Positions 13,608 to 30,273 of a DNA stretch of 64,000 nt are shown piece after piece (within the stretch, counting starts at the first letter, position 1; each line of letters starts with the position of its first letter). The notes beneath the pieces were generated by a model, which did not search any database, was not told where the DNA came from, and saw nothing but the letters and a program-made list of their open reading frames with translations. The position numbers and the translations under genes were made by a program. The stretch comes from Dyella halodurans (lineage in GTDB: Bacteria > Pseudomonadota > Gammaproteobacteria > Xanthomonadales > Rhodanobacteraceae): NCBI RefSeq assembly GCF_026283925.1, contig NZ_JAPDPF010000008.1:186001-250000 (forward strand). The letters run 5' to 3'.

Positions 13608-16600
13608 GCGATATCGACGTAGCCGATGGCGCGGGCCACGTCAGCCGCGGTGCGGCCAAACGCATCGGCGGCTTGGCGGTCGGCGCCGCGCGCCAGCAGC
13701 ACGCGCGCCGGTGCCAGCATGGCGTGCATGGCGCAGGCGTGCAGTGCGGTGACGCCACGCTGATCCGCGTGTTCCAGCACGGCGCCGGCATCCAGCAAGA
13801 CCGGAACCAGCGCGCCGATGTGGGTCGCGTCGCAGTCGCTGCCCGGGCGCAGGTGCGCACCCAGCAGCAATAGCAGTGGCGTCTTGCCTTCCTTGTCGGC
13901 CAGGCTTACGTCGGCACTGCGCTTCAGCAGCGCGTCGAACAGGCGCCGGGCACGCAGGCTGTCGTTGTACTCAAAGCCGAACTGCGCCGCGGCGTGCAAG
14001 GCGCCATGGCCACGCGCATCCACCGCGTTCACCTCGGCGCCGGCATCCAGCAACTGTTCGGCAATCTCGGGATAGCCCAGCGCAGCGGCCATCATCAGTG
14101 CAGTGGCATCGCCGGGCAGGCGTTGGTCCACGCTGACGCCATGCTGCAGCAATAGCGCGATCAACGCCTCGCGGCGTGCGCCAACCGCGGCGGTCAGCGG
14201 CGTCATGCCGTTGTTGGCGGCAAGCGTGGCATCCGCACCGGCTTCCAGCAGCAGGGCAGCGACGTCGCGGTGACCGGCGCCGCAGGCGTGCAGCAGGGCC
14301 GTGGCGCCTTGCTGGTCGCGCGTGTCCACTGCGAAGCCGAGTTCCAGCAGGCGCTCGACGGCGGTCAGCGCGCCAGCGGCGGCGGCCTGCGGCAGATCAT
14401 CGTCCCGCAGCGGCCGGCGTGGACGCGCCCAGTCGCCCCAGTTCAACCAGCGCTGCACCGCGGCGTGTTCCAGTGACAGGCCGAGCGGCGTCTCGCCATT
14501 GGCATCGATCGCCTCGGGATCGGCGCCGTGCGCCACCAGCGCACGCACCAGCGGCAGCGCGTTTTCGCCGTGCTCCAGCGCGGCGAACAGCGGCGTGCGG
14601 CCGTAATGGTCGCGGGTATTGGGATCGCAGCCGCGCGCCAATAGTGCCTGCAGCAGGGTGGGCTGCCCAAAGGTGGCAGCCAGGTGCACCGGAGTGCGTT
14701 CGCGCGCATCCGCGGTAAACGGATCGGCGCCGCGCTCGAGCATGGCCAAAGGCAAGGCGGCGCCCTGCACGCTGTCTTCCAGTCGCAGCAGGGCCTGGGT
14801 CATCAGGCCCGCGCCGGCCGGCGTCGCGCCGGCCTGCAGCAGATCCTCCACCGCCTCGGTGGCGGCAGGCAGCTGTTGCAGCAGCGCGTCGAACAGGCGG
14901 CGACCGAGCGGCGGCAGCTGTGGCTCGCGCTCTTCGATGGTGTCGGCATCGTCGACCAGCTGCGGTTGCAGGCGCGCCTCGGGATCGAGGGCGTGATCGA
15001 GCAACCAGCGCCGCGCCGCGCCCAGGCCCGCTGCGGAGAGATCCAGATAGAGCTGGGCCAGCTGCGCCTGCGGCCATTCGCGTACGCGTGCCGCAAAGGT
15101 CGACACGATGGCCCAGTGGCCGAAGCGCAGCGCATCGAGCAGGTGCGCCGGGGTATCGGCGCCTTCCGGCAGCGCGTCCATGCTGAGGCTGGCGGGCAGC
15201 GGGGTTTCCGGGTCAAGCAGGGCGACCAGGTCCCAGCGGCCGGCAGCCGCAGCATGGTCCAGCGCGCTGCGCCCGTCGCTGCCGACGGTCTTGGGCTCGG
15301 CGCCCAGTGCAAGCAGGGCACGCACCATGTCGGCATGCGCGTGTGGCGATTGGCAGGCCAGAGTCAGTGCATCGCGTCCGTGGCTGTCGCGCACGCGCGC
15401 ATCGGGCTGCGCTTCGGCCAGCAGTTTCACGATGCCCACGGCGCCGGCGCGCGAGGCTTCCATCAGGGCGGTGCTGCCGTGGCGATCGGTGAGTCCCACA
15501 TCGGCACCCGCGGTGCGCAATGCACGCGCAATCTGTTCGTGACCTTCCGCCGCGGCGGCCATCAAGGCGCTGCGATGGCGCGCACATACGGCATTGACGG
15601 AGGAGCGGTGCTTGAGCAGCAGCTTGACGCCTTCCACATCGTCGTCGGCCACGCCAGCCGCGGCGACGATCGCCGGCTCGCCATCGGGCGGATTCGGTTT
15701 GGCGCCACGTTCGAGCAGGAACTTCGCCACCGGCCAGTTGGCTGCGCGGCAGGCGACGGCGAGTGGACTGAGGCCGGCCTTGTTGAGCGCATTGATGGTG
15801 GCGCCAGCGTCGAGCAGCATGGCCGCCACGATCGGTTCGCCGCTCAGCACGGCGCCGTGCAGCGGGGTATTGCCCTCGGTGTCCGCCGCGAGCGGGCTGG
15901 CACCGTTGGACAGCAGGGTCATCACCGCGTCGGCGCGGCCGTGCCAGCTGTCGCGGGTCACCGCGAGCAGGGGCGTGAGGCCGCCATTGGCGCGGTTCAC
16001 GTCGGCACCTTTGGCGATCAGCGCACGCAACAGCCGGGTGTCGGGCAGCAAGGCCGCCAGGGTCAGCACGGGGCGCTGATCGCGCTCGCCGCTGGCTGCG
16101 ATGGTGTTCGGATCGGCGCCCGCCTCGACCAGGGCCAGGGCGCGCTCGATGTCGCTGTCTCGTACGGCAGCCAACAGGGCGCGTGCCTGTTCCGGCGTGC
16201 CGGCGGTGCGCTCTTCCTCGCTGAGTTGCGGCACGGGCTTCGGCGCCGGGGCCGATGGTCGCGGTTCGACCACGCCGGCAGACGGCTGCCGCAGCGGGCG
16301 TCGCGTTTCGCACAACAGGGCGCGCAGGGTGCGATTGGCAATCACCAGGCAGCCCAGTGGCATCAGCACCACGCCATAGATGGCCAGCGCCGCCGTGCGC
16401 AGTTCCGACGGCAGCACGCCGTAGAGCCCGGTCAGCGCGATGGCGACGAAGGCCAGCACCAGCAGCGCGAACGCCGCCGGCAGGAAGTGTGTGAAGAAAC
16501 GCTCCTCGCGCGACAGGTGGCGGCCAAACGTCAGGCTGCGCGCCGTCGCCGTGAAGATCCACGAGCCGTCGCTTTGCGCCGGATAGGCGTCATCCCACAC

Positions 16601-16993
16601 ATACACCAGCCCGAAGGCGGGCCAGACGCGCCACAGCGCCGTCAGCGCCACCATCAGCGCGCCCGCGAGCAGCAGGGCCGCGCCAAGGCTCGGCGCCTGG
16701 TTCAAGCGGAGCATGGGCCAGGCGACCAGCAGAAACACCAGCACCACGTAGCCGGTGAACATCACCAGATAGGCTGCGCCCCGGCGCAGCACGGTGCGGC
16801 CAAAATGAGGCTCCGGATCGAAGCCGATGGCATGGCACACCGCCGCCATGGTCAAGGCGTTGGCGATCAGCAGCGGGATCAATGCAAGCGGGTGTGCGCC
16901 GAGCGCGGCAATCGCCGTGGCGATCAGCCCAGGCACGAACCAGGCGAGTGCTTGCAGCAGCGGGGGCGGGCGACGCGTTTTTGAGTAGGCCAT
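13526..16993 (-). CDS. Large ankyrin-repeat membrane protein
   Basis: A 1155-residue protein. Residues about 1-245 carry six hydrophobic segments in three pairs (near 12-50, 72-130 and 168-220), so the N-terminal part is an inner-membrane domain. The rest is a long tandem array of about twenty ankyrin repeats, each with the G-TPLH/ALxxA and VxxLLxxGAD signatures (for example NTPLHGAVLSGEPIVAAMLL, TPVHLAATFGQPTLLQALLA, GHGALHAAAQF). One stretch in the middle (residues about 575-690) is degenerate and may be a separate linker fold. The array should face the cytoplasm and act as a protein-binding platform, but no partner is evident. Start at ATG 16993. The 3' end overlaps the GT9 gene convergently by 82 bases. 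Ankyrin proteins of this size with a polytopic N-terminus are known in Xanthomonadales but uncharacterised. Confidence 0.9.
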   Translation of the reverse strand: MAYSKTRRPPPLLQALAWFVPGLIATAIAALGAHPLALIPLLIANALTMAAVCHAIGFDPEPHFGRTVLRRGAAYLVMFTGYVVLVFLLVAWPMLRLNQAPSLGAALLLAGALMVALTALWRVWPAFGLVYVWDDAYPAQSDGSWIFTATARSLTFGRHLSREERFFTHFLPAAFALLVLAFVAIALTGLYGVLPSELRTAALAIYGVVLMPLGCLVIANRTLRALLCETRRPLRQPSAGVVEPRPSAPAPKPVPQLSEEERTAGTPEQARALLAAVRDSDIERALALVEAGADPNTIAASGERDQRPVLTLAALLPDTRLLRALIAKGADVNRANGGLTPLLAVTRDSWHGRADAVMTLLSNGASPLAADTEGNTPLHGAVLSGEPIVAAMLLDAGATINALNKAGLSPLAVACRAANWPVAKFLLERGAKPNPPDGEPAIVAAAGVADDDVEGVKLLLKHRSSVNAVCARHRSALMAAAAEGHEQIARALRTAGADVGLTDRHGSTALMEASRAGAVGIVKLLAEAQPDARVRDSHGRDALTLACQSPHAHADMVRALLALGAEPKTVGSDGRSALDHAAAAGRWDLVALLDPETPLPASLSMDALPEGADTPAHLLDALRFGHWAIVSTFAARVREWPQAQLAQLYLDLSAAGLGAARRWLLDHALDPEARLQPQLVDDADTIEEREPQLPPLGRRLFDALLQQLPAATEAVEDLLQAGATPAGAGLMTQALLRLEDSVQGAALPLAMLERGADPFTADARERTPVHLAATFGQPTLLQALLARGCDPNTRDHYGRTPLFAALEHGENALPLVRALVAHGADPEAIDANGETPLGLSLEHAAVQRWLNWGDWARPRRPLRDDDLPQAAAAGALTAVERLLELGFAVDTRDQQGATALLHACGAGHRDVAALLLEAGADATLAANNGMTPLTAAVGARREALIALLLQHGVSVDQRLPGDATALMMAAALGYPEIAEQLLDAGAEVNAVDARGHGALHAAAQFGFEYNDSLRARRLFDALLKRSADVSLADKEGKTPLLLLLGAHLRPGSDCDATHIGALVPVLLDAGAVLEHADQRGVTALHACAMHAMLAPARVLLARGADRQAADAFGRTAADVARAIGYVDIAHELAARAGSSIPSVRQMLRQPAQPSD

Positions 16994-17065: not shown

Positions 17066-17374
17066 TCAACGATCGCGGCTGCGATCCTGCGGTGCGCTCT
17101 TGTAGGCGAGATGATTGGCAGCGGCGAGCGTCTGCTGTGGTGGCAGCTGCAAGTGCCAGCCCTGCTCGCGCAAATGTGCCATCACCTGCTGGGCATCTTC
17201 CTGGGGAAGCTTGCGCTGGTCGTTGAGCTCGACCTCGAGCACCAGGCGCAACTCGCCGAGCATCTGGGTGAGCGAATCCGGCAGGGGGCTGAAGTCGTCG
17301 CGGCGGCCCAACCACAGGTAGGTATCGGGCTTGCGTTGGCTGGCATAGACAAAACAGTGCATAGGGGCACCCAT
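17066..17374 (-). CDS. YcgL domain-containing protein
   Basis: A small cytosolic protein of the gammaproteobacterial YcgL family. The family's N-terminal pattern is visible as MHCFVYASQRKPDTYLWLGR, followed by FSPLPDSLTQMLGELRLVLEVEL and LREQGWHLQLPP. The function of YcgL is unknown. The open frame gives 102 residues from ATG 17374. The homologous start is more likely the internal ATG at 17362, because the family begins MxCxVY, which would give 98 residues. Neither ATG has a clear ribosome site. It lies 72 bases upstream of the ankyrin gene on the same strand and may share its transcript. Confidence 0.82.
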   Translation of the reverse strand: MGAPMHCFVYASQRKPDTYLWLGRRDDFSPLPDSLTQMLGELRLVLEVELNDQRKLPQEDAQQVMAHLREQGWHLQLPPQQTLAAANHLAYKSAPQDRSRDR

Positions 17375-17576: not shown

Positions 17577-17668
17577 CGGGGGTGTTAAACGCGCGTATGA
17601 AATTAGCGAAATCGTCAATCCTCCCGCTACGACCCGAGCCAGATCAACAATAAGCAGGAGCAATGCTG

Positions 17669-19108
17669 ATGCAGATGTCTTTCCGTCAATTTTCACGTGC
17701 GGGCCGTCCGCTCACGCTTGCTGCGCTGAGCCTGGCCATCCTGGGGACGCTCGCCGCGCCGCAGCGCGCCGAAGCCAGCGCTTTCCAGTTGCATGAAGAC
17801 AGCGCCGCCGCCATGGGCCGCGCCTACGCCGGTTCCGCTACGGCGGGGGGTGACGTGTCGGTGGTGGCCAATAACCCGGCTGCGATGTCCGACCTGAAGG
17901 GTACGTATTTCCAGGCGGACATTACCGCCATCAATTTCGGCACCACCTTCAGCGGTTCTGCGCATGACGCGCTGGGTCGTCCGATCAGCGGCGGCAACGG
18001 CGGCGACGCCGGCACCACCATGCCGGTCCCGGCGATCTTCTTTGCCACCCAGATCGACGACAAGTGGCACGTCGGCGCCGGCTTCACCGTGCCGTTCGGC
18101 TTCCAGACCGAGTACGACCAGAACTGGATCGGCCGCTACAACGCCATCAAGTCGCAGTTCACCTCGCTGGATGCCACCTTGTCGGTGTCCTACGACGTGA
18201 CCGACAACTTTGCGCTGGGCCTGAGCGGCATCGCGCAGCGGACCTCGGCCGAACTGACCAGCGCCATCAACTACAACGCGGTCGGTCTGGGCCTGGTCAA
18301 CCAGGCGGCGCTGGCGGGTGCGCTGACCCCGGCTCAGGCGCAGGCACTGGGCCAGCAGGTCAACACCATCATTCCGCCGGGTTCGGACGGTATCGCCCGC
18401 ATCAAGGGTGACGACTGGGCCTATGGCTACCAGATCGGCGCGTACTGGAAGGTCACCTCGAACGACAAGCTGGCCTTCGACTATCGCTCGAAGATCTCGC
18501 ACACGCTCTCCGGCACGGCCAACTTCACCATGCCGCCGAACGTGCAGGCGCTGCTGTCCAGCCCGACCGTAGCTCCGCTGCTGGCCGGTGCCGGCGGCGT
18601 GCCGTTCACGCGCACCGAAGGCACCGCGCCGTTCACCACGCCGGCCACCGCCACCGCCAGTTACTGGCACCAGGAAGAGAAGTGGGGCATCGGTTCCGAC
18701 GTGTCCTGGACCAAGTGGGACGTGTTCAAGAACCTGACCGTCAACTACGCCAACCCGGCACAGCCGGCCAGCGTGGAACAGTTCAACTGGAAGAACAGCT
18801 GGTACGTGGCGGTCGGTGGCGACTACTACCTCAACGAAAAGGTCACGCTGCGCGCAGGCTTCGCGGTCGACACCACGCCGACCACGAACAGCACCCGCGA
18901 CCCGCGCGTGCCCGATGGCACCCGCCAGCTGCTGTCGTTCGGTATGGGCTACAAGGCCAGCGAGCATTTCGTGCTCAATGCCTCGTACGCGCACATCTTC
19001 GTCAACAAGGCGACCATCAACGCGACCAGCTCCACCGGCGACGTGCTGACCGGCAGCTCGGACGACTACGGCAACCTGCTGAGCTTCTCGGCCCAGTACA
19101 AGTTCTGA
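17669..19108 (+). CDS. FadL/OmpP1-type outer membrane transport protein
   Basis: A 479-residue outer-membrane porin of the FadL family, which carries long-chain fatty acids or other hydrophobic compounds. The signal peptide ends AAPQRAEA, and the mature N-terminus SAFQLHEDSAAAMGRAYAGSA with NNPAAM is the FadL hatch signature. The C-terminus SFSAQYKF ends in Phe, as beta-barrel substrates of BAM do. Three in-frame ATGs occur at 17663, 17669 and 17675. AGGAG ends at 17660, so 17669 has the best spacing (eight bases). A strong intrinsic terminator follows, and the gene is monocistronic. The substrate is unknown, but the next operon includes an aldehyde dehydrogenase of aromatic compounds, so a hydrophobic aromatic is possible. 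Confidence 0.93.
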   Translation: MQMSFRQFSRAGRPLTLAALSLAILGTLAAPQRAEASAFQLHEDSAAAMGRAYAGSATAGGDVSVVANNPAAMSDLKGTYFQADITAINFGTTFSGSAHDALGRPISGGNGGDAGTTMPVPAIFFATQIDDKWHVGAGFTVPFGFQTEYDQNWIGRYNAIKSQFTSLDATLSVSYDVTDNFALGLSGIAQRTSAELTSAINYNAVGLGLVNQAALAGALTPAQAQALGQQVNTIIPPGSDGIARIKGDDWAYGYQIGAYWKVTSNDKLAFDYRSKISHTLSGTANFTMPPNVQALLSSPTVAPLLAGAGGVPFTRTEGTAPFTTPATATASYWHQEEKWGIGSDVSWTKWDVFKNLTVNYANPAQPASVEQFNWKNSWYVAVGGDYYLNEKVTLRAGFAVDTTPTTNSTRDPRVPDGTRQLLSFGMGYKASEHFVLNASYAHIFVNKATINATSSTGDVLTGSSDDYGNLLSFSAQYKF

Positions 19109-19308: not shown

Positions 19309-20721
19309 TCAGCCGTGGCGAAGCAGCAGCGCGAGCATGCGACGGAAGCGTGCGCCGTAAGGCGGACTGAGCATGCCGGTGCCATTGATGCGCGACTGGT
19401 GGAATACCGGCTTCATGTGCGAGAACGTGCGGAAACCGGCTTCGCCGTGATAACCGCCCATGCCGGAAGGGCCCACGCCACCAAACGGCATGCCATGCTG
19501 CGCAATGTGGTAGATCGTGTCGTTGACGGTGACGCCACCCGCATGGGTGCGTGACAGCACGCGGTCGATGCTGGCGCGGTCCTGTTCGAACAGATACAAG
19601 GCCAGCGGCTGCGGATGCGCAGCGACGTACGCAATCGCCTCGTCCAGCGTGTCATAGGGCAGCAGCGGCAGCAGCGGGCCGAAGATCTCGTCCTGCATCA
19701 CGGCCATGCTGTCGTTCACGCCCGTCAGTATCACCGGCGGCATCAGCCGACGCGAAACGTCTTCCTGCGCCTCGCTGAGTGGCTCCAGGCGCGCGCCGGC
19801 GGCCACGGCATCGTCGCGCAGCTTGGCCAGGCGCGCGTACTGGCGGTCGGTGATCACGGTGGCGTATTGCCCCAGCGTGTCCAGCGAGGGATACAGCCGT
19901 GCCGCTGCCGCGCGGGCGGCGTCGACAAATTCGGCGACCCTTGCACGCGGAACCAGCAGATAGTCGGGCGCAATGCAGGTCTGCCCGGCATTCACCAGCT
20001 TGCCGGCCACGATGCGCTCGGCAGCGTGCGCCAGCCGCGCCGTCGGACCGACGATGGCTGGTGACTTGCCCCCCAGTTCCAGCGTCACCGGGGTGAGATT
20101 GGCGGCCGCGGCGCGCATCACGTGGTAACCGACCGCGGTCGAGCCGGTGAACAGCAGGTGGTCGAACGGCAAGGCCGTGAAGGCCTGGGCAACGTCCGCG
20201 TCGCCGGTGATCACCACCACGTCGTCGGGCGTGAAGTAGCGCGCCACCTGCTCGGCGAACAGCGCCGAGAAACGTGGCGTGTACTCGCTCATCTTCAGCA
20301 TCACGCGGTTGCCCGCGGTGAGCGCGTCGATCAGCGGGCCGACGGCGAGGAAGATCGGGTAGTTCCACGGCACGATGATGCCGACCACGCCGCGTGGCTG
20401 TGGCAGCTGCGAAATGCTTGCAGGCAGGAACACCATGTTGGCGAGCCCGCGCCGCGGCCGCATCCAGCGGCGGCCCCGGCGCAGCGAGTGCCGCAGGTTG
20501 GACAGGCTCGGGTAGATCTCCAGCAGTTCGGTCTCCTCGACCGGGCGATGGCCGAAGTCAGCGCTGATGGCCTTGGCAAAGGCATCGCGCTGTTCGGTCA
20601 ACATCTTCTCCAACGCCCGCAGGCGGGCGGCGCGCACCGGCCACGCAGGCATCGGGTCCTGCGCCTGCGCGTTGCGCAGGCGCAGGAAAGTGGCGTTGAG
20701 AGACTGGCTGGTTTCGGTCAT
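19309..20721 (-). CDS. Coniferyl aldehyde dehydrogenase-like ALDH
   Basis: A 470-residue NAD(P)-dependent aldehyde dehydrogenase of the short form that includes coniferyl aldehyde dehydrogenase (CalB) and class-3-like fatty aldehyde enzymes. The substrate-channel and cofactor motifs are VVGIIVPWNYPIFLAVGPLI and LLFTGSTAVGYHVM. The catalytic Glu is in VTLELGGKSP, and the nucleophile is C249 in NAGQTCIAPDYLLV. The C-terminal motif HAGGVTVNDTIYHIAQHGMPFGGVG is also typical. It begins six bases after the TonB-dependent receptor stop and so is the last gene of the probable operon 25665-19309. It would oxidise an aromatic or medium-chain aldehyde in the cytoplasm. The substrate assignment is by family resemblance only. 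Confidence 0.88.
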   Translation of the reverse strand: MTETSQSLNATFLRLRNAQAQDPMPAWPVRAARLRALEKMLTEQRDAFAKAISADFGHRPVEETELLEIYPSLSNLRHSLRRGRRWMRPRRGLANMVFLPASISQLPQPRGVVGIIVPWNYPIFLAVGPLIDALTAGNRVMLKMSEYTPRFSALFAEQVARYFTPDDVVVITGDADVAQAFTALPFDHLLFTGSTAVGYHVMRAAAANLTPVTLELGGKSPAIVGPTARLAHAAERIVAGKLVNAGQTCIAPDYLLVPRARVAEFVDAARAAAARLYPSLDTLGQYATVITDRQYARLAKLRDDAVAAGARLEPLSEAQEDVSRRLMPPVILTGVNDSMAVMQDEIFGPLLPLLPYDTLDEAIAYVAAHPQPLALYLFEQDRASIDRVLSRTHAGGVTVNDTIYHIAQHGMPFGGVGPSGMGGYHGEAGFRTFSHMKPVFHQSRINGTGMLSPPYGARFRRMLALLLRHG

Positions 20722-20727
20722 GTCGGA

Positions 20728-23208
20728 TCAGAACTTGGCATGCAATTCGACGCCGTACACGCGTGGCGGCGAAATGCTGGCGAACGGCGTGCCGAACACG
20801 CTGGTGCTGATGTTGTTCACGCCGGTCACGTACCGTTTGTTGAAGATATTGGTGCCATACAGTGCCACACCCCAGCGATCGCCGGCTGCGCTCCAGCCCA
20901 GGCGCGCGTCAGTGCGCTGCTGGCTGGTGCCGATCTGGAAGTTCGGGCTGATATTGCACGAGCCCTGCACCTGCGAATCGGAATTGCAGCGCGCCTTGCC
21001 ACGATAGGCCTGCGACAGGTCGAACTCCACATCGCCGTTCGCTACATGATGCCATGTATAGGCCAGCGAGGCGGCGGCAGAGAACTTCGGCGTGCCGGTC
21101 GGCTGGCCGTCCAGGTTGGTGCCATCGGGCGCCGTCGCATTGCGATACGTGTCATCGATATAGGCGCCGTTGAAGCTGATGCGGAAGCTTTCGATCGGTC
21201 GCCACTGGGCTTCGAGCTCCAGGCCCTTCGCTTCCTGGTTGCTGCTGTTGACGATATAGACCGGCACGGCCGAACCGGCGCTGTTCGGGTCCAGCGCCAG
21301 CGACTGCAGGTTGTTGTAGCGGTAGTAGTACATCGAGGCATTCAGCAGCAGGTTCTGATCAGGGAACAGGCTCTTGATGCCGGCCTCGTAGTTCGTCACC
21401 GTTTCCGGTGCGAAGGTCGAGCCGACTTCCACGCTGTTGTAGCCGCCCGCCTTGTAGCCGCGCGTCACCGACACATAGCCCATGACATCGGGCGTGAACT
21501 TGTAGTCGGCCACCACGCGGGGGCTGAAATTGTTCCAGGTATTGTGGGCCGATACCGGCACGCCCACAAAGTTCGGGAAGATCACATTGCCGCCGAACGC
21601 GGCCAGCGCCATCTGCGCCTGCGGCGGCAGCAGCTGGGTGATGCCCAGCCCGTTGAGCCCGGCAATCACGCCGTCGAACGCGGGTGCGCTGCGCGGCATG
21701 TTGTACCAGCTGAAGTCCTTCTCATCACGCGTATAGCGCAGGCCGGTGGTGATGTTGAACTTGTCGTTGACATGCCAGATCACGTCGCCGAACGCCGCAT
21801 ACGCCTTGAAGTTGCCGTCGTTGCTGATGGCTTCGTGCCAGGGATAACCAAGCAGTGAGAACGGCAGGCCCATCGCGGCCAGCCCATTGGTGATGTCGGT
21901 CAGCGGCGTACCGACGCCAAGGACATTCTGCGCCAGCGTGTCGAGGCTGCTCGTATTGGTATTGGTCTGGCTCTGCTGGCGTGCCTGTTCCTGGTAGTAG
22001 CTGACGCCGCTCACCCAGTCCATCAGGTCGTTGTTGCCGGTGAGCTTGAACTCCTGATACCAGCTGTTGTTGTGTTCGACATTGGTCGTGTCGAGGTAGG
22101 TGACGACGTGGTTGGTGCCGTCGTAGTCGCCGCGATTGAAGGTGTCGAAGCCGCGCCAGGCCGTGGTCGAGACCAGGCTGCCCCAGCTGAAGGAATGATC
22201 GATCGACAGCGTGGCACCGTCGAATCGGCGCGTTTCCGCCGCGCCAATCGCGTCGTTGTAGAGCGGCGCGTGCAGCGGGTTGAGATAGGTGGTCGGATCG
22301 GCCGGGAACGGCGCGCGCTGGTTCGTGTCATTGGACAGCGGAATCAGGCCGATGGCGGGTTCCGGCGCCTGGTTCAGCTTTTCGTGATCCCACGACAGCA
22401 GCACACGGGTATCGTCGGTGATGTTCCAGCGATACACCGCGCGGGTGCCCCACTGGTTCGCACCGCCGTATTCCTTGCCGGTGGCGGCATCCTTGATCCA
22501 GCCGTCGCTCTGGTTGTCCAGCACGCTCAGGCGCAGCGCCATGTCCTTGTTGATCGGGATATTGAGCAAGGCGTCGGCATAGCGCTGGCCCTCGTTGCCG
22601 ATGCGCACGCGCGCGTCACCCTCGAACTTGTCGGTGGGCTCGTTGGTGACGATGGAGATCGCGCCGCCGGCGGCATTGCGGCCAAACAGCGTGCCCTGCG
22701 GACCCTTCAGCACTTCGATGCGCGCGATGTCGTTGAACGCCAGCAAGGCGCCACCCGAACGCGCCGCATAGACGCCGTCGACGTAGACGCCGACGGCGGA
22801 TTCGGTGCCGACACCAAAGTTGGAGGTGCTGATACCGCGCAATTCATACGTGGGCTGGGTTGGCTGGCTGGCGTCGACGACCAGGCCCGGCACGAAGATA
22901 TCCATCTTGCTGAGGTCGGTCGCCGCCAGCGTATCGATCTGCTTGGCGGTGACGATCTGCAGCGCAATCGGCACCGACTGCACTTCCTGGGTGCGGCTCT
23001 GCGCCGTCACGGTGACGTTGCCGAGCAGCTTCGCCCTGTCCGGGTTCGCGGCGGTGCTGCTCGCACCTGCGCTTGATGTGTCCGGTGGTGTCTGCTGCGT
23101 CTGATCGTCAGCGAACGCGACGGCGGCATGGCTGCCGAGCAGACATACCGTGCCACCGAACAGCAGGCGGCGCAGGCAAACGGACAGCGGACGTGGACGC
23201 ATGGTCAT
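20728..23208 (-). CDS. TonB-dependent outer membrane receptor
   Basis: An 826-residue TonB-dependent receptor. A signal peptide ends near AAVAFADD. The plug domain runs from about residue 60 (LGNVTVTAQSRTQEVQSVPIA) through LRGISTSNFG and VEVLKGPQGTLFGRNAAGGAI-like sequence (IEVLKGPQGTLFGRNAAGG). The 22-stranded barrel follows and ends VYGVELHAKF with C-terminal Phe. The sequence is of the iron-complex/pesticin-like group commonly used for unknown organic ligands in sphingomonads and xanthomonads. GTG 23211 and ATG 23208 are both possible; GGGGAG nine bases before the ATG favours 23208. It lies 61 bases after the cytochrome gene and six before the aldehyde dehydrogenase gene. The ligand is unknown. 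The neighbours suggest an oxidisable organic compound rather than iron. Confidence 0.92.
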   Translation of the reverse strand: MTMRPRPLSVCLRRLLFGGTVCLLGSHAAVAFADDQTQQTPPDTSSAGASSTAANPDRAKLLGNVTVTAQSRTQEVQSVPIALQIVTAKQIDTLAATDLSKMDIFVPGLVVDASQPTQPTYELRGISTSNFGVGTESAVGVYVDGVYAARSGGALLAFNDIARIEVLKGPQGTLFGRNAAGGAISIVTNEPTDKFEGDARVRIGNEGQRYADALLNIPINKDMALRLSVLDNQSDGWIKDAATGKEYGGANQWGTRAVYRWNITDDTRVLLSWDHEKLNQAPEPAIGLIPLSNDTNQRAPFPADPTTYLNPLHAPLYNDAIGAAETRRFDGATLSIDHSFSWGSLVSTTAWRGFDTFNRGDYDGTNHVVTYLDTTNVEHNNSWYQEFKLTGNNDLMDWVSGVSYYQEQARQQSQTNTNTSSLDTLAQNVLGVGTPLTDITNGLAAMGLPFSLLGYPWHEAISNDGNFKAYAAFGDVIWHVNDKFNITTGLRYTRDEKDFSWYNMPRSAPAFDGVIAGLNGLGITQLLPPQAQMALAAFGGNVIFPNFVGVPVSAHNTWNNFSPRVVADYKFTPDVMGYVSVTRGYKAGGYNSVEVGSTFAPETVTNYEAGIKSLFPDQNLLLNASMYYYRYNNLQSLALDPNSAGSAVPVYIVNSSNQEAKGLELEAQWRPIESFRISFNGAYIDDTYRNATAPDGTNLDGQPTGTPKFSAAASLAYTWHHVANGDVEFDLSQAYRGKARCNSDSQVQGSCNISPNFQIGTSQQRTDARLGWSAAGDRWGVALYGTNIFNKRYVTGVNNISTSVFGTPFASISPPRVYGVELHAKF

Positions 23209-23236
23209 CACCGGTTTCTCCCCTTTGTATATGTAG

Positions 23237-23259
23237 AGCCGCGGTTTCAGCCCGCGGCT
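23237..23259. other. Intercistronic hairpin between cytochrome and receptor genes
   Basis: A perfect 8-bp stem AGCCGCGG/CCGCGGCT with a seven-base loop lies in the 61-base gap of the operon. On the minus strand it is not followed by a U-tract, so it may stabilise or process the mRNA rather than end it. It may also be a member of a short repeat family. Confidence 0.5.
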
Positions 23260-23269
23260 TGCAGAGCAT

Positions 23270-24415
23270 TCAATGAATCGCGACGCAGCCCCCCGACTGC
23301 GCCGCGATCCATGCCTTGATCAGTGCAACGCCCTCACGGTGCACTGTGCTTCTCCCCAACTCGGGCATCATCACGCCAGGATCGGCCGAGTCCATGCGAT
23401 ACGGCAGGATGGAGTCGTTCGGAACGCCTGGCACGATGTCGAACATATGATCACCCGTGCCGCGACCGGCCGCGACGGGCGGCTTGCAGATGCCCAGGTG
23501 ACGGTCTTCGGGTGCGCTCACGTCCAGCGTCAGCGCAGTCGTATTGGCCGCGCCCTTCGGATTGTGGCAGTGCCCGCAGTTGATATCGAGATAGGCACGC
23601 GCACGCGCGTCGAGCGACGCATGCGTGTCCATCCAGTTCGCGTTGCGCGGCGCTTCCGCCGGTGCTGGCGCGCCGGTGAGATAGCCCACCTTCATGAGAT
23701 GGGCGAGCTGGTTTTCCTCACCGCCCGCGTAGTGATAGTCGCGGTTGAGATGGCGCGCCTTGGGTCCGATCGGATGGATCTTGCGCGTGACCCAGTCCTG
23801 CGCGTGGCAGCTGGAGCACTGGCTCTCGTCGGGCACCACATAGTTGAAGTCTTCGCGCTCGCCGGCATCGGCGACCAGGGTCAACGGAATCACCGCGCCG
23901 GTACGCGCCAGTTCGGCGTCGCTCTGGTCATCCTTCCACACATACGGGATGGCCGCCCAGCCCGCTTCGCGATGCACCAGGACGCGCGTCTCGACCAGGT
24001 GCACGTTGGCCAGGTCGAGGCCTTGTCCGGCGAAATCGCGCGAGCTGTCGTAGGTGCGCGCGACGTCGCTGAACTTCCCGTCCGCCGTCTTCGGGTAATA
24101 GAAGGTCTTGCTGATGATGGTACCGACCGGGAAGTCGAACGTATCGGTGGCGTCGTACTTGGCGGCGACGCCCTTGGGCATCCAGATCGTGCGCAGCTTG
24201 TGCGCGTAGTCGGTGAACAGCGGCGTGTTGAGGTCGTACGGCACCACGCCTTCGTTGAGCACGAGCTTGCCGCCGCGCACTTCCACGACATGCCAGTCGC
24301 TCAGCTTCGGTGGACGGCCCTCCGCCTGGAAGGCCACCGGATCCAGGCCACGGTGGCAAGCACTCACCAGCAGCAACGCCAGCAACAGGCCGGCACGCAA
24401 ACAATACTTCATCAT
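23270..24415 (-). CDS. SO2930-type diheme c-type cytochrome lipoprotein
   Basis: A 381-residue exported lipoprotein with lipobox LVSAC at residues 16-20. It has two heme c attachment motifs, C200-S-S-C203-H204 and C280-G-H-C283-H284. It matches the TIGR03806 / SO2930 family, whose members occur regularly in pairs with a TIGR03805 parallel beta-helix protein; that partner lies 11 bases upstream here. The N-terminal half (LSDWHVVEVRGGKLVLNEGV, YDLNTPLFTDYAHKLRTIW) is the family-specific domain. The frame is open upstream to 24631, but only ATG 24415 gives the signal peptide (ATG 24412 follows it). It should be a periplasmic or outer-membrane-anchored electron carrier or peroxidase-like enzyme. 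The function of the pair is unknown. Confidence 0.88.
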   Translation of the reverse strand: MMKYCLRAGLLLALLLVSACHRGLDPVAFQAEGRPPKLSDWHVVEVRGGKLVLNEGVVPYDLNTPLFTDYAHKLRTIWMPKGVAAKYDATDTFDFPVGTIISKTFYYPKTADGKFSDVARTYDSSRDFAGQGLDLANVHLVETRVLVHREAGWAAIPYVWKDDQSDAELARTGAVIPLTLVADAGEREDFNYVVPDESQCSSCHAQDWVTRKIHPIGPKARHLNRDYHYAGGEENQLAHLMKVGYLTGAPAPAEAPRNANWMDTHASLDARARAYLDINCGHCHNPKGAANTTALTLDVSAPEDRHLGICKPPVAAGRGTGDHMFDIVPGVPNDSILPYRMDSADPGVMMPELGRSTVHREGVALIKAWIAAQSGGCVAIH

Positions 24416-24426
24416 CGACGACTGCC

Positions 24427-25665
24427 TCAGGCTTTCGGTTCCGGATCGAGCACAACCGGCGGCAGCTTGGGCAGCGTGCACTGGTACGGCTTGGTGTCGG
24501 TGCTGGGATTCTTGAAGTCGTGCGGGCCGTCGGCGTTGATTACGCCCACGTCGCCGTTCTGGATGCAGAAGCGGTCGCCCTCGGGCGGCAGGCCGTTCAC
24601 CTGCGTCTTCTCGTCCACATAGCCATCCCACAGGATGTCCGGGAACTTGCCGTTGATGCCGTAGACGGCGGTCTTCAATGCCTTGAACTTCAGGCCGTCG
24701 GGCGAATCGCCGCCACCCTTGAAGCGGTTGTCGTAGATGAAGATGCCCTTCGGGTAGGGGTTGTAGTCGGCCGCCACGCCCCGGGTGTTGTAGTAGTTGG
24801 TGGAGAAGTAGCTGGAAATGATGATATTGGCGGTCTGGCTGTTGGAGATGTCGTTGTCGAAGATCTCCACCTTGTCGTTGGAGTTCACCACCACGCCGGC
24901 GCCGCGCGGCACGCTGGCTACCGCAGCACCCTTGGCGGCGAAGTTGTCGGTGTTGTTGTCCACCACCTGGTTCTTGAAGATGCGCGTGCTGTGGCCGGCC
25001 TGCGACAGGTTCGGCATGTTGAACACCAGGATGCCGCCAGTGTTGTGCGTGGCCATGTTGTCGTAGACGTCGGCATTCACCGAATTCTCGATCTCGATGC
25101 CGGCCACGTTGTATTCGGCATGGTTGCGGCGTACCACGATGTTGTTGGACTGGCCGACGTAGATGCCCGCGTCGGAGGCGCCAATGACGACCGAGTCTTC
25201 AATGAGGACGTTCTGCGTCTTCACGGGGTACAGGCCGTAGGCACCGTTGGTGGTCTTGGGACCACCGGTCCATTCCACGCGCACGCCACGGATGGTGATG
25301 TTCCTGCCCTGGTTGATCTTCAGGGCATCGCCCTTGGTGTCTTCCAGGGCCAGGTTCTCGATGGTGAAGTCGTTGGCATTGACCAGCAGGCCTTCGGGGC
25401 CGACCAGTTGGCCCTTGAACGACAGTACGGTCTGGTCCTTGCCGGCGCCCTTGATGGTCACGCCGTCCGTGCGCAGGCTCAGGCCGCGCTGGAGATGGTA
25501 GTGACCCGCGGGAATCTCGATCACGCTGCCCGGCTTGGCGTCGAGCAACTGTTGCTGGAGCTTGGCCTCGAAGGAGGCGTCGGTGCTGCTCTGCGTGGGG
25601 GCCTGTTGACTGCTGCAGGCGGCCAGCAGGAACGGAATGATCACGGCCAGATGAGTTTTGCGCAT
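24427..25665 (-). CDS. Parallel beta-helix repeat lipoprotein (TIGR03805 type)
   Basis: A 412-residue exported protein. MRKTHLAVIIPFLLAACSSQ is a clear lipoprotein signal with Cys17. The mature part is a right-handed parallel beta-helix with repeated I-x-N-N and V-x-x-N turns (ITIRGVRVEWTGG, NVLIEDSVVIGASDAGIYVG, IVVRRNHAEYNVAGIEIENS). It is the constant partner of the diheme cytochrome family and leads the four-gene unit. Beta-helix folds usually bind or cleave polysaccharides, but no pectate-lyase catalytic set is obvious. ATG 25665 is chosen for the signal peptide; AAGG lies just upstream. The open frame to 25710 is unlikely to be coding. Confidence 0.88.
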   Translation of the reverse strand: MRKTHLAVIIPFLLAACSSQQAPTQSSTDASFEAKLQQQLLDAKPGSVIEIPAGHYHLQRGLSLRTDGVTIKGAGKDQTVLSFKGQLVGPEGLLVNANDFTIENLALEDTKGDALKINQGRNITIRGVRVEWTGGPKTTNGAYGLYPVKTQNVLIEDSVVIGASDAGIYVGQSNNIVVRRNHAEYNVAGIEIENSVNADVYDNMATHNTGGILVFNMPNLSQAGHSTRIFKNQVVDNNTDNFAAKGAAVASVPRGAGVVVNSNDKVEIFDNDISNSQTANIIISSYFSTNYYNTRGVAADYNPYPKGIFIYDNRFKGGGDSPDGLKFKALKTAVYGINGKFPDILWDGYVDEKTQVNGLPPEGDRFCIQNGDVGVINADGPHDFKNPSTDTKPYQCTLPKLPPVVLDPEPKA

Positions 25666-25839: not shown

Positions 25840-27951
25840 TTACCAGCGGTAACGCGCCGATACGGTGATTTCGCGCGGATAGCCGTAATAGCACCAGATC
25901 GCGCTGTTGCAGGCGCTGACGTAGGTCCGGTCGAACAGGTTGGCGGCGGTGACCTGGAAGCGCCAGTTCCGCAGGTCGTAGTGGGCATTGGCGTCGTACA
26001 GCACATAGCCGCCGGTGCGGAACTGGTTGTTCGCGTCGCCGTAGTGCGCGCCGATGTAGCGCACGCCGCCGCCGAAGCCGAGGCCGGCCAACACGCCGGT
26101 ATGCACGTTGTAATCGGCCGAGACCGAGGCCTGCTGCTTGGGCACCAGGGCGACCTGCTTGCCCAGGGTGGCATCGTTGGCGCGCGTGACCTTGGCATCG
26201 GTATAGGCGTAGGCGGCCGTCATGCTCAAGTAGTCGGTCAGCGCGACATTTGCTTCCAGTTCGGCGCCACGGGTGCGGGTCTGGCCCTGCTGCAGCGAGA
26301 AGAACAGGTGCTCGGGATCGACGGTGAGCGAATTCTTCAGCGTCAGCTGGTACACCGCAGCCGTGATCAGCGTGCGCCCCGAGGGCGTCTGGTATTTCAC
26401 GCCGCCTTCGTACTGGTCGCCGGTGGTCGGCTTGAACGCGTTGCCTTCGAAGGTCTGGCCCACCGTGGTCATGAACGAATGCGAATAGGCGATATACGGC
26501 ACCAGGCCGATGTCGGTGGTGTAGTTGAGGCCGAGGCGACCGGAGAAGGCGCTGTCGTTCTGCTTGTCCTGGGTGTTGGCGATCTGGTCGTCGACCTTGT
26601 TGGTCACCCAGTCGTTGCGTCCGCTGGCGACGAGGCCCCAGCGGCCCCAGTTGATCTGGTCCTGTACGTAGGCGCCGAGTTGTTCGAGCACGCTATGCGT
26701 GTGGAAGGTGTACGGCGTCGGGGTAATCGGCGCGCCGTAGACCGGATCGAAGATATCGATGGGCGGCGCGGCGCCGAAGCCGGACTTGTAGTCGTTCGTG
26801 CTGTGCAGGTAGTCCACGCCCATCAGCACCGTGTGCTGCACGTCGCCCTGGGCGAATTTCGCCTCGGCCTGGTTGTCCACGGCAACCACATGCGCCTCGT
26901 CCACCAGCGGATAGTTGTAGCGGTTGAGCGTGCGCAAGTCGTCCTGCAGACCCAGGCTGCCGATCGAACGGTGATCCACCGTTTCGTTCTGCACGCGCAG
27001 GTCCTGGCGCACCGACCACACCTCGTTGAAGCGGTGGGTGAATTCGTAGCCGAGCGACGCGTCGGTCTTGTGGTAGTAGTCGTAGTCGGGCTCGCCGGTA
27101 TTGACGTCGCGCGGGATCTGGCCGTTTGGATTGGGGTAAAGCGTGCCCTGCGAGGGCAGGAAGCCGCCCACGCCGCTGGACAGGCTGCGCTGGTAGCGCG
27201 CCAGCAAGGTCAGCGAGGTGTCGTCGTCCGGCTTCCAGGTGAGGCTGGGGGCGAAGTAGTAGCGATCGTCCTGCGAGTGCTCGATGTTGGAGTCGCCCTT
27301 GCGGGCGAGCGCCACCACGCGCCACAGCCAGTGGCCGTCGCTGTCGAGCTGGCCGCCGGTATCGCCGGCCAGCTGGCGCTGGCGAAAGCTGCCCACGGTC
27401 GCCTCGATCTCCTGCGGCGCCTCCAGGCTGGGGCGCTTGCTGGTCATGTCGATCATGCCGCCCGGCGGCATCTGGCCGTACATCACCGAGGTCGGGCCCT
27501 TGTTCACTTCGACGCGCTCCAGGCCGTACGGCTCGATGCGCGAGTCGGCGGTCCACACGCCATTGGGCAGTGCCAGACCGTCCAGGAACTTGGCCGGGTC
27601 GTAGCCGCGGATGAGGATCCAGTCACTGCGCGGATCGGCGCCATAGCTGCCGCCCACCGCGCCGGCCAGGTAGCGCACGGCCTCGTCCAGGCCCTGCACG
27701 CCGTACAACTGCATGCGCTCGGGGGTGATGATGCTGACCGACTGGGGAATGTCGACGGTCGGCGTTTCGGTCTTGGTGGTCGAGTAGACGACATTGACAG
27801 CCTCGAGGGCGACGCTGTCTTTGCCGTCTTGGCTGGTGGTGGTCGTTTGCTGGGCGTTGGTGCTGTCGGTTTGCTCGGCTGCGAAGGCCGGGCCGGCGAG
27901 GGCAAGCGACATCGCGACCAGAAGCGCACTTCTGGGATAGGTGGCAGACAT
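25840..27951 (-). CDS. TonB-dependent siderophore receptor
   Basis: A 703-residue outer-membrane receptor of the FhuA/FpvA/FoxA siderophore class. The signal peptide is MSATYPRSALLVAMSLALAG with cleavage near AFA-AEQ. The plug starts at VALEAVNVVYSTTKTETPTVDIPQSVSIIT and contains ILIRGYDPAKFLDGLALPNG and GLERVEVNKGPTSVMYGQMPPGG. The barrel ends ITVSARYRW with C-terminal Trp, and LFDRTYVSACNSAIWCYYGYPREI is the class-typical last-strand region with paired Cys. ATG 27951 is preferred over the upstream GTG 28002. A promoter overlapped by a Fur-type box lies about 75-100 bases upstream. No siderophore synthesis or TonB genes are nearby, so it probably imports a ferric xenosiderophore. The gap 25666-25839 downstream holds no gene. 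Confidence 0.94.
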   Translation of the reverse strand: MSATYPRSALLVAMSLALAGPAFAAEQTDSTNAQQTTTTSQDGKDSVALEAVNVVYSTTKTETPTVDIPQSVSIITPERMQLYGVQGLDEAVRYLAGAVGGSYGADPRSDWILIRGYDPAKFLDGLALPNGVWTADSRIEPYGLERVEVNKGPTSVMYGQMPPGGMIDMTSKRPSLEAPQEIEATVGSFRQRQLAGDTGGQLDSDGHWLWRVVALARKGDSNIEHSQDDRYYFAPSLTWKPDDDTSLTLLARYQRSLSSGVGGFLPSQGTLYPNPNGQIPRDVNTGEPDYDYYHKTDASLGYEFTHRFNEVWSVRQDLRVQNETVDHRSIGSLGLQDDLRTLNRYNYPLVDEAHVVAVDNQAEAKFAQGDVQHTVLMGVDYLHSTNDYKSGFGAAPPIDIFDPVYGAPITPTPYTFHTHSVLEQLGAYVQDQINWGRWGLVASGRNDWVTNKVDDQIANTQDKQNDSAFSGRLGLNYTTDIGLVPYIAYSHSFMTTVGQTFEGNAFKPTTGDQYEGGVKYQTPSGRTLITAAVYQLTLKNSLTVDPEHLFFSLQQGQTRTRGAELEANVALTDYLSMTAAYAYTDAKVTRANDATLGKQVALVPKQQASVSADYNVHTGVLAGLGFGGGVRYIGAHYGDANNQFRTGGYVLYDANAHYDLRNWRFQVTAANLFDRTYVSACNSAIWCYYGYPREITVSARYRW

Positions 27952-28023
27952 ACGGGGCAACCTGGGCAGAAAGGAAGGGGTTGTGGCCCGTACCAGCGCC
28001 ACCCGCTCTGACGGCGGATGGTT

Positions 28024-28193: not shown

Positions 28194-29276
28194 TCAGGCC
28201 GCCTGCTGGCGGGCGCTGCGCGGCGGCATGCCGGTCCAGCGCTTGAACGCACGGCGGAATTCGCGTGGATCGCTGAAACCGATCTCGAGGCCGATTTCCG
28301 CCACGCTCAGCGCACCGCCATGCAACAGTTCCAGTGCCCGCTCGGCGCGGACACGATCATGGATCTCGCGGAAAATGCGGCCGCCTTCGGCCAGCCGGCG
28401 GCGCAGCGAGCGCTCGCTCATATTGAGCATGCGGGCCACATCCGGCAGCCGCGGCTGCTGGCGCAGGTGGCTACGCAGCAGGCGCTCGACTGAGACGACG
28501 ACCTCCTGTTGCATGCCACCGACACCGTGCTGTTGCGTGCACAGCGCGAGGGCCTGCTGCGCCGTCAACGGGTTGTGCGAGGGCAGTGGATGCCCCAGCC
28601 ATTGCGCGTCGAGCACGACGCGGTTGAGGCGCGCGCCGAACACCAGTTCGCACTGGAAGTAATCAGCATAGGCCTGGACATGCGCGGGCCTGGCGTAGGT
28701 CACCTCGAGCCGGGATGGCCGGAAGTCGCTGCCCACCAGCTGGCGCGCGATGGCCAGAGCGCTGGAGAACAACTCCTCGCACAGGAACGGCAGCAAGGGC
28801 GGATCGTTGAAGCGTGGCCAGGCGGCCAGGGCCACCTCGCGCGGGCCGGCGACTTCGAAGCTGACATCGAGCAGGCTGCCGCTGACCCGATGGTGCGTGA
28901 TGCCCGCGGTCATGGCATCGCCAAACGTGGGCGACGTCATCATGGCCAGACCGAGCAAGCCGAAGCTGCCCAGCGTCTCGCCCTGGCCGACCTCGAGCCC
29001 CAGTCCCGGCTCGCCCGTTGCCTGCAAGGCGCGACGTATCACCATCTGGGCCTGTCGATAGGACACGCGCAGGGTGGGGTCGTTCAGCTGGTCGCGGCGC
29101 AGCCCGGAACCGGTGAACCAGGCATCGCAGGAAAGGCCGCGCGAAAGCGCCAGCTGGGTGAGATGGACGAGGATGTTCGGTGGGGTTTCGGCCGCGGTAT
29201 AGCGCGGGTCGGCGCCCGCTGGCGTACCCGTGGAGTCCTCGGTTGCTTGACCGGCCATGGCCGCAACGGACGTCAT
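28194..29276 (-). CDS. AraC family transcriptional regulator (Arabinose_bd-type N-terminus)
   Basis: A 360-residue regulator. The N-terminal 200 residues resemble the PF12625-type ligand domain of the OruR/MmsR-like group (GLGLEVGQGETLGSFGLLGLAMMTS, VQAYADYFQCELVFGARLN). The C-terminal double helix-turn-helix is clear: LPDVARMLNMSERSLRRRLA and LSVAEIGLEIGFSDPREFRRAFKRWTGMPP. The last motif is the AraC signature. Start at ATG 29276; ATG 29258 is an alternative. An FNR-type site lies 44 bases upstream. It is followed by the Fur-regulated receptor promoter, but the 240-base gap makes co-transcription uncertain. The effector is unknown; this group often controls amino-acid or lipid catabolism. 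Confidence 0.9.
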   Translation of the reverse strand: MTSVAAMAGQATEDSTGTPAGADPRYTAAETPPNILVHLTQLALSRGLSCDAWFTGSGLRRDQLNDPTLRVSYRQAQMVIRRALQATGEPGLGLEVGQGETLGSFGLLGLAMMTSPTFGDAMTAGITHHRVSGSLLDVSFEVAGPREVALAAWPRFNDPPLLPFLCEELFSSALAIARQLVGSDFRPSRLEVTYARPAHVQAYADYFQCELVFGARLNRVVLDAQWLGHPLPSHNPLTAQQALALCTQQHGVGGMQQEVVVSVERLLRSHLRQQPRLPDVARMLNMSERSLRRRLAEGGRIFREIHDRVRAERALELLHGGALSVAEIGLEIGFSDPREFRRAFKRWTGMPPRSARQQAA

Positions 29277-29479: not shown

Positions 29480-30208
29480 CTAGCGGGGTACGGGTGTCGC
29501 GGTCTGCCATCGTTCGATCCACCGGTTCAGATCCGCCAGCCGCTTCGCCTCGTCATCGCGCAGGCTCATGCCGATGGCGACGCCGGCGACGTGGCCGCTG
29601 GGGTCCAGCAACATCAAGGTGGGGTAGGTGCTGACGCCGAGCGTGTCGATCAATGCCTGGCCGCCGTGGAGGATGGGCCAGGCGAAGCCGCGGCTGCCGG
29701 CGAACCGACGCGCCGTGTCCGCGTCCTCATAAGTGATGGCGACAAAGTTCATGTCGCCGTGCTGGCGCGCAAAGGCACTGAGCGTCGGCACTTCGGCGAT
29801 GCATGGTGCGCAGTCGGCGAAGAAGAAACTGATCAGCGTATAGCGGCCCTGGTAGGAGCCTAGTCGTTGCGTGCCACCTTGCAGCGCCGGCAGCTCGAAC
29901 GGCGGAAACGCATCGCCGCGCTTGAACGCGAATCGAGCGGGCTGCCCGGGTGTCTGGATGCGCAGCATGGCGGCGCCAGCCTGGCTGTCCTTGGTGCTGC
30001 TGAAGGTCTTGCCGTCGCCAAGCAGGCGGGTGAACGCGGCGTAGTTGATGGATACGCCAGCTTGATCGAGATAGCGCACGGTGGGTGATGCACCCAATTG
30101 CAGCGATGCGATCAGGCTTTGCTCGTCGCGCGTCTGCGCGGCATGCAGCGAGGTGTTGCACAACGCCGCCAGTAACATCCATCCGAGCAGTGGCGATGCA
30201 CGTCGCAA
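29480..30208 (-). CDS. TlpA/redoxin-like exported thioredoxin-fold protein
   Basis: A protein of 242 residues from TTG 30208. The N-terminal segment RRASPLLGWMLLAALCNTSL with cleavage near LHA-AQ is a signal peptide, so it is periplasmic. The C-terminal half is a thioredoxin fold of the AhpC/TSA-redoxin or TlpA type: FPPFELPALQGGTQRLGSYQGRYTLISFFFADCAPCIAEVPTLSAF-like sequence. Its redox pair is C133-A-P-C136 and the cis-Pro segment is GVSTYPTLMLLDP. The N-terminal 100 residues have no recognised fold. TTG 30208 is chosen because GGAG lies six bases upstream and it yields a normal signal peptide; GTG 30256 would add 16 residues. It lies 65 bases after putA. The role in thiol reduction or cytochrome maturation is inferred from the family. 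Confidence 0.82.
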   Translation of the reverse strand: MRRASPLLGWMLLAALCNTSLHAAQTRDEQSLIASLQLGASPTVRYLDQAGVSINYAAFTRLLGDGKTFSSTKDSQAGAAMLRIQTPGQPARFAFKRGDAFPPFELPALQGGTQRLGSYQGRYTLISFFFADCAPCIAEVPTLSAFARQHGDMNFVAITYEDADTARRFAGSRGFAWPILHGGQALIDTLGVSTYPTLMLLDPSGHVAGVAIGMSLRDDEAKRLADLNRWIERWQTATPVPR

Positions 30209-30273
30209 GGGACTCTCCAGCGCTCCGTCGTCGATGACGGGCCGGCGCCTGTGCACCGGCCCGTGGTCGTGGC

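Follow-up and report, generated by a model that had tools for sequence, protein, structure and literature searches.

A beta-helix and diheme cytochrome lipoprotein pair that is probably kept or lost together with a TonB-dependent receptor and an AraC-type regulator in the family of Dyella halodurans

The stretch of DNA analyzed here, 64,000 nucleotides of Dyella halodurans (contig NZ_JAPDPF010000008.1, positions 186,001 to 250,000, hereafter the window), carries a beta-helix lipoprotein of family TIGR03805 and a diheme c-type cytochrome lipoprotein of family TIGR03806 within a run of minus-strand genes. In order of transcription, the run consists of putA and genes for a TlpA-like protein, an AraC-type regulator, an FhuA/FoxA-like receptor, the beta-helix protein, the cytochrome, a TonB-dependent receptor, and an aldehyde dehydrogenase (Table 1). 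An initial annotation had described the last four as an operon, and their strand and positions were all confirmed. Its spacing of 11, 61, and 6 bases also holds at the first and last junctions, while the middle gap, between cytochrome and receptor, is 58 bases, or 61 with the ATG at 23208 taken as the receptor start. A minus-strand scan for terminator-like sites listed none within the block from the beta-helix gene to the dehydrogenase gene, although such sites were no more frequent overall than in shuffled sequence (9 versus 7.7, standard deviation 3.0). The regulator was not in the gene list of the initial annotation and is counted here as a core gene. It is split from the block by the FhuA/FoxA-like receptor, a feature common to 4 of the 68 other family loci described below, and that receptor is an addition outside the core.

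Gene content was compared in a sample of 147 genomes of the window's family. Thresholds were fixed beforehand and not varied (receptor, E<=1e-100; regulator, E<=1e-70; dehydrogenase, E<=1e-90), and the pair was called by the family cut-offs. The beta-helix protein scored over its cut-off in 70 genomes and the cytochrome in 69, the single difference being a genome (G078) in which the cytochrome is split across two contigs. Counting this genome as positive gave 70 pair-positive and 77 pair-negative genomes; matches to TIGR03805 at E<=0.001, those below the cut-off included, extended to 83 genomes. The regulator was found in 71 genomes, namely, all 70 that are pair positive and one other (G101). 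Where it has been displaced from the cassette it is still in the genome, about 14 kb away in G052 and on other contigs in G037 and G063. The regulator match of the pair-positive genome G057 (G057:C80:14212-15249) has one internal stop codon. A copy of the receptor was present in 70 of the 70 pair-positive genomes versus 3 of the 77 pair-negative ones, which upholds the earlier proposal that the receptor belongs with the pair.

The order of the genes is equally regular. Among the 68 other family loci (the window and G078 being left out), the beta-helix gene lies directly upstream of the cytochrome gene on the same strand in all 68, and the receptor is the next gene downstream in 62 and lies further downstream in 3. 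In 51 of the 68, a dehydrogenase gene lies no more than 4.5 kb downstream; in L075, L147, and L149, the end of the stretch cuts the dehydrogenase. Taken together, these counts argue that the arrangement is not due to chance. The fetched stretch holds no receptor in L068 (from G065; this stretch stops at a contig end), L122 (from G028), or L160 (from G121). In these 3 of the 70 pair-positive genomes the copy stands elsewhere, outside the fetched cassette locus, which somewhat lowers confidence in the four-gene unit. Protein distances across 35 loci gave a correlation of 0.87 between beta-helix protein and cytochrome and of 0.62 and 0.50 between the receptor and the two pair members. The distances of the regulator do not favor a unit that lacks the dehydrogenase, their correlation being weak with the pair members (0.27 and 0.35) and stronger, at 0.51, with the dehydrogenase. 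On balance, we consider it quite probable that the AraC-type regulator, the beta-helix protein, the diheme cytochrome, and the receptor form a unit that is kept or lost together.

The aldehyde dehydrogenase, which the initial annotation had made a defining member, did not keep that standing. It is present in 139 of the 147 genomes, versus 70 for the pair, and remains where the block is missing. Of 25 pair-negative genomes with a dehydrogenase at >=60% identity (a number counted by eye), 20 were fetched, and tblastn searches of these 20 loci found no match to regulator, beta-helix protein, cytochrome, or receptor. There was a strong putA match in 14 of them and a fadL gene facing the dehydrogenase, as in the window, in 13; in 13 of the 20, the dehydrogenase still lies between putA and the convergent fadL, with the block missing. 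The distance from putA to the dehydrogenase, estimated from alignment ends, is 101 to 2468 bases in the 14 pair-negative loci and 6159 to 10402 bases in 35 pair-positive loci; within a single genus (g4), it is 101 bases in one species and about 6300 in three others. A quick dehydrogenase tree with 52 positive and 20 negative rows shows 12 changes of the cassette label, and starred branches force at least 7 of them; the tree counts label changes only, without a direction of gain or loss. The pair-negative loci and the tree thus indicate that the dehydrogenase and fadL stay while the four-gene block is kept or lost, and the dehydrogenase was rejected as a core member. It looks like a resident gene and an optional partner. 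The proposal that all four of the initially annotated genes co-occur therefore stands for the receptor and fails for the dehydrogenase, even though the gap between these two genes, again estimated from alignment ends, does not exceed about 25 bases in 40 of 50 measured loci, from which cotranscription with the receptor is probable. In addition, a relative of the dehydrogenase (47 to 48%) follows the receptor outside the putA-fadL site in L221, from Stenotrophomonas nitritireducens, and in L247, from a metagenome genome; three other Stenotrophomonas loci (L214, L231, and L238) have no dehydrogenase after the receptor.

Several other genes recur around the site. Downstream of fadL, the window carries a minus-strand gene for an ankyrin-repeat protein of 1155 amino acids, which probably belongs to a cluster (c4) that 47 family loci have near the cassette site. 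Also on the minus strand is a gene for a small conserved protein of 102 amino acids, a member of a cluster (c6) with 44 loci, which we take to be perhaps YcgL. Upstream of the cassette in loci of genera g17 and g22 (L132, L166, and others), there is a recurrent short-chain dehydrogenase gene, whose product was scanned in L132, together with a small gene on the opposite strand (clusters c7 and c12).

Table 1. Genes and other features of the window at and around the proposed core, by position in the window
Feature	Position	Strand	Remarks
putA	30274-33525	minus	Named from translation
TlpA-like protein	29480-30256	minus	Between putA and AraC-type regulator
AraC-type regulator (Arabinose_bd + HTH_18)	28194-29276	minus	Pfam PF12625, PF12833; proposed core member
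FhuA/FoxA-like siderophore receptor	25840-28002	minus	571 bits to FhuA model, under its cut-off of 803; over the TonB-siderophore subfamily cut-off
Beta-helix lipoprotein	24427-25665	minus	TIGR03805, 428.6 bits versus cut-off of 141.5; proposed core member
Diheme c-type cytochrome lipoprotein	23270-24415	minus	TIGR03806, 401.2 bits versus cut-off of 313.3; proposed core member
TonB-dependent receptor	20728-23211	minus	Plug and barrel domains; proposed core member
ALDH3-like aldehyde dehydrogenase	19309-20721	minus	Last gene of likely transcript; apparent resident neighbor
Terminator-like hairpin and T run	19314-19300	minus	End of aldehyde dehydrogenase gene
FadL-type transporter	17663-19108	plus	Toluene_X, 305 bits; convergent neighbor; not core
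Small conserved protein	17066-17374	minus	102 amino acids
Ankyrin-repeat protein	13526-16993	minus	1155 amino acids

The two lipoproteins, both over curated cut-offs here and encoded side by side, are paired in other genomes as well. The beta-helix gene adjoins that of the cytochrome, the family now named 'SO2930 family diheme c-type cytochrome' in NCBIfam, in 112 of 115 fetched loci, and in 78 of 80 loci of a second set (the best 80 of 577), the two misses (L223 and L228) having the cytochrome at a contig end. This adjacency, and the absence of a function for the pair in the literature searched, agree with the initial description of the pair as conserved and without described function. In 7 of these loci, three of them in one genus, the two proteins are encoded by a single open frame, and both families were confirmed within one protein of 881 amino acids. 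These fusions are counted among the 112. The 3 exceptions among the 115 loci (L171 to L173) encode long proteins in which a TIGR03806 domain, scoring under the family cut-off, follows a GSDH-type pyrroloquinoline quinone (PQQ) domain. These proteins are 1196 to 2369 amino acids long, and that of L172 also has F5/8 type C and ThuA domains. In a phylum-wide search, TIGR03806 was over its cut-off in 44 of 397 genomes and matched at E<=0.001 in 53, the weakest matches being in families f53, f63, and f72. The window's own genome has a second, weak TIGR03805-like stretch (G000:C20:219798-220244; 41 bits) with one internal stop. The presumed acylated cysteine of the lipobox is invariant in the aligned sequences (48 of 48 beta-helix proteins and 47 of 47 cytochromes), and both pair members thus fit lipoproteins, as first annotated. 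An aspartate at position +2 occurs in none of the 48 and in 4 of the 47, which fits an outer-membrane location for most pair members. The cytochrome has CxxCH motifs at residues 200 to 204 and 280 to 284, with cysteines and histidines kept in at least 95% of the 47 sequences.

Outside the family, the company of the pair varies. Loci of Pseudoxanthomonas, Stenotrophomonas, Luteimonas, and Arenimonas have a divergent regulator with the pair and the receptor, usually without the dehydrogenase. Pair and receptor also stand together in Kordiimonas (L211) and in a Maricaulis metagenome (L253), and on a Novosphingobium plasmid (L254) a related receptor gene precedes the pair; the receptor gene beside the pair on that plasmid is broken by an IS5 element (L254:6780-10572). 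Family f25 has a fused beta-helix-cytochrome protein and, nearby, a related AraC-type gene. In L118 (family f12) a FadL gene immediately precedes the fused gene, and a related AraC-type gene lies 6.6 kb upstream. In the loci of Pseudomonas and Microbulbifer, the 9 kb around the pair (less for a few stretches) held neither a related receptor nor a related regulator. Neighbors outside the order were compared among open reading frames selected by length and third-position G+C, a selection of 121 proteins of 21 loci. Of these, 91 proteins of 16 loci were used; three Pseudomonas loci, L200, L251, and one open reading frame of L227 were left out. The 16 loci, some of which carry a related receptor and so are not all bare pairs, had no common neighbor theme, with AraC-type regulators accounting for 5 and TonB receptors for 3 of the 91 proteins.

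The bare pairs of Pseudomonas and Microbulbifer are what would be expected if the pair were a general outer-membrane conduit for respiratory or extracellular electron transfer, with the receptor incidental to it. The Shewanella protein SO_2930 appears, in the passages retrieved from one study, within a list that gives it an outer-membrane or extracellular location (PMC4837345), which is consistent with such a role. An incidental receptor is hard to reconcile, however, with the presence of regulator and receptor copies in all 70 of the family genomes that have the pair or with the receptor relatives that adjoin it in Kordiimonas and Maricaulis, and we regard a general conduit as distinctly unlikely.

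Models of the two lipoproteins were compared with solved structures. The model of the beta-helix protein (mean pLDDT 92.9) gave 108 Foldseek matches in the PDB at E<=0.001, and all 50 that were listed are carbohydrate-active proteins: AlgE4, AlgE6, RbmB, PL6, inulin fructotransferase, GH28, and the like. The best was mannuronan C-5 epimerase AlgE4 (E 3.6e-9; template modeling [TM] scores 0.53/0.57). Its predicted fold is thus that of beta-helix enzymes acting on carbohydrates. In sequence it gave no match to AlgE4, AlgE6, or PL6 lyases at E<=10, and its sequence profile reached inulin fructotransferase at 0.028 across 35 residues; WD-40 matches from a single-sequence search were taken as spurious. 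Conserved polar residues in the alignment of 48 sequences include E91, D113, K116, Y143, Y146, D165, Y169, E191, and E193, which, judging by the repeat register, would share one face. No histidine is conserved at >=90% in that alignment, whereas mannuronan C-5 epimerases have a catalytic histidine, and the protein further differs from AlgE4, AlgE6, and PL6, its closest solved folds among those listed, in having a lipoprotein anchor and a cytochrome partner. It is perhaps an enzyme.

The missing histidine also bears on metals. The beta-helix protein matches the NosD Pfam domain (45.6 bits versus a cut-off of 23.6), the core receptor matches siderophore-receptor models under cut-off, and a siderophore-type receptor adjoins the block in the window, so a NosD-like protein and a heme reductase might strip a complex of copper or iron, or reduce it, for import by the receptor. 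Yet apart from the presumed acylated cysteine, the beta-helix protein has just two conserved cysteines, both near the C terminus, and the siderophore-type receptor recurs in just 4 of the 68 other loci; metal acquisition is, in our judgment, very improbable. Copper handling in particular, as suggested by the NosD similarity, was rejected for want of a conserved histidine, and to the full-length NosD family TIGR04247 the protein scored 34.1 bits against a cut-off of 300.

The cytochrome model (pLDDT 89.5) had no Foldseek match in the PDB at E<=0.001 and 269 at E<=10, a result in which the heme-free model may hide relatives. Its sequence profile matched one entry, a cytochrome c555 construct, along a single short stretch (E 4e-4). 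The rubber oxygenase RoxA, which occurs with a receptor and an aldehyde dehydrogenase, is similar to the locus in combining a diheme protein, import, and aldehyde oxidation. It differs in that no solved chain matches the fold of the cytochrome at E<=0.001 (50 of the 269 weaker matches being listed), and our literature search found no paper in support; a RoxA-like oxygenase was rejected.

The receptor offers a second line of evidence on the substrate. Four of 21 listed receptor copies outside cassettes were examined, and 3 of the 4 sit in sugar loci. A 68% copy in the window's genome (L276) lies alongside DGOK, MR_MLE, GH35, and alpha-galactosidase genes, and a 65% copy in another species of the genus (L278) has similar galactonate-type and galactosidase surroundings. 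The neighbors of the G121 copy, which stands outside the cassette locus, encode an FGGY kinase, class-II aldolases, and an aminotransferase. In L147, genes for an FGGY kinase, a class-II aldolase, and an aminotransferase, all assigned by family scans, are inserted between cytochrome and receptor, and L075 and L149 carry the same gene clusters, which places a sugar operon inside the cassette in three species. In a quick receptor tree, cassette receptors and sugar-locus receptors intermix, and starred branches support the placement of 3 of the 4 copies among cassette receptors. The beta-helix fold matches, the receptor copies in sugar loci, and the sugar operon inserts together make a carbohydrate or polyol the likeliest cargo of the receptor, a choice we hold tentatively. 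Several observations weigh against it. The sugar-locus evidence comes from 4 of the 21 copies; the fourth, a 57% copy in G002, adjoins a fatty-acid hydroxylase; the 25 families listed of 140 for the 91 neighbor proteins of the 16 outside-order loci include no glycoside hydrolase; and both the dehydrogenase and FadL suggest a hydrophobic compound.

This last point could be extended to catabolism of a hydrophobic compound, in which the receptor or FadL imports a long-chain, terpenoid, or lignin-derived compound, the cytochrome aids oxidation of alcohol to aldehyde outside the cell, and the ALDH3-like enzyme finishes inside. By PDB sequence match, the dehydrogenase is nearest to a steroid aldehyde dehydrogenase (9nxl), with a fatty aldehyde dehydrogenase (4qgk) close behind. 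FadL is convergent in 42 of the 68 family loci and directly upstream of the fused gene in L118, and the regulator resembles the QhpR, GliR, and CypR models, all under their cut-offs. The fatty-acid hydroxylase of G002, the close spacing of receptor and dehydrogenase, and the regulator distances, which track the dehydrogenase best, tend the same way. However, the dehydrogenase and FadL persist without the cassette and so do not define its substrate, the examined receptor copies lie mostly in sugar loci, and the fold neighbors of the beta-helix protein act on carbohydrates. Hydrophobic-compound catabolism is therefore unlikely in our view, and the lignin-derived, terpenoid, or alkyl substrates of the initial annotation have less support than carbohydrate.

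Its wider idea of capture, redox chemistry, and import is a sensible layout, and with a carbohydrate as cargo, the cassette may be a regulated locus of the carbohydrate-uptake type with a redox lipoprotein pair, an interpretation to which we give somewhat less than even weight. The regulator would sense the substrate. The beta-helix protein, through a conserved face of acidic and aromatic residues, would bind an oligosaccharide- or polysaccharide-like compound at the outer membrane and perhaps modify it, and the attached cytochrome would move electrons from oxidation of the compound to periplasmic c-type carriers. The receptor would then import the product. In this genus, the resident dehydrogenase would be read through from the cassette and may oxidize an aldehyde made inside the cell. 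Oxidation is the least certain part of this proposal. Against it, binding may be the only role of the beta-helix protein, and an enzyme whose gene lies elsewhere may supply the electrons. A search for a PQQ partner in the window's genome found one GSDH match, unlinked and on another contig.

Among known systems, the layout is nearest to the CUT loci of Xanthomonas, carbohydrate utilization loci with a TonB-dependent receptor, as they appear in the passages retrieved from PMC1790865, with the lipoprotein pair in place of hydrolases. The likeness lies in the receptor and linked regulator and in receptor relatives that, in some cases, stand beside sugar-catabolism genes. Unlike the CUT loci so described, the cassette core has the beta-helix/diheme lipoprotein pair and no inner-membrane transporter or sugar-converting enzyme, neither of which was found between regulator and dehydrogenase in the window. 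Compared with the pair elsewhere, where both members are likewise over cut-off and adjacent, the pair here is joined to a regulator and a receptor, whereas in many other lineages neither lies beside it. The PQQ proteins of L171 to L173 resemble the fused proteins in having the cytochrome module C-terminal to another domain and differ in that a PQQ dehydrogenase domain sits where the fused proteins have the beta-helix. Full-text literature searches did not find TIGR03806 named, and the retrieved passages that name TIGR03805 concern other systems. Those retrieved from PMC5829830, PMC4837345, and PMC10986466 give no function for the pair. The same searches found no description of the regulator, pair, and receptor in combination, in agreement with the initial annotation, which knew of none for its own set of genes.

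Two protein families that are spread over many Proteobacteria, with no function found in print, are thereby placed with the genes that accompany them. The result shows which genes go together, the regulator provides a handle for finding the inducer, and close species with and without the cassette, as in genus g4, offer natural comparisons. A bolder proposal, which we consider doubtful at present, is a new class of oxidative glycan use, in which an outer-membrane complex of a carbohydrate-active beta-helix protein and a diheme cytochrome, for whose fold no solved relative was found, would oxidize an oligosaccharide or polysaccharide at the cell surface and pass the electrons to the respiratory chain. 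A dedicated receptor, controlled by the cassette's own regulator, would receive the product. If the pair does oxidize glycans at the cell surface, glycan use would have a respiratory route in addition to the hydrolytic and lyase routes already known.

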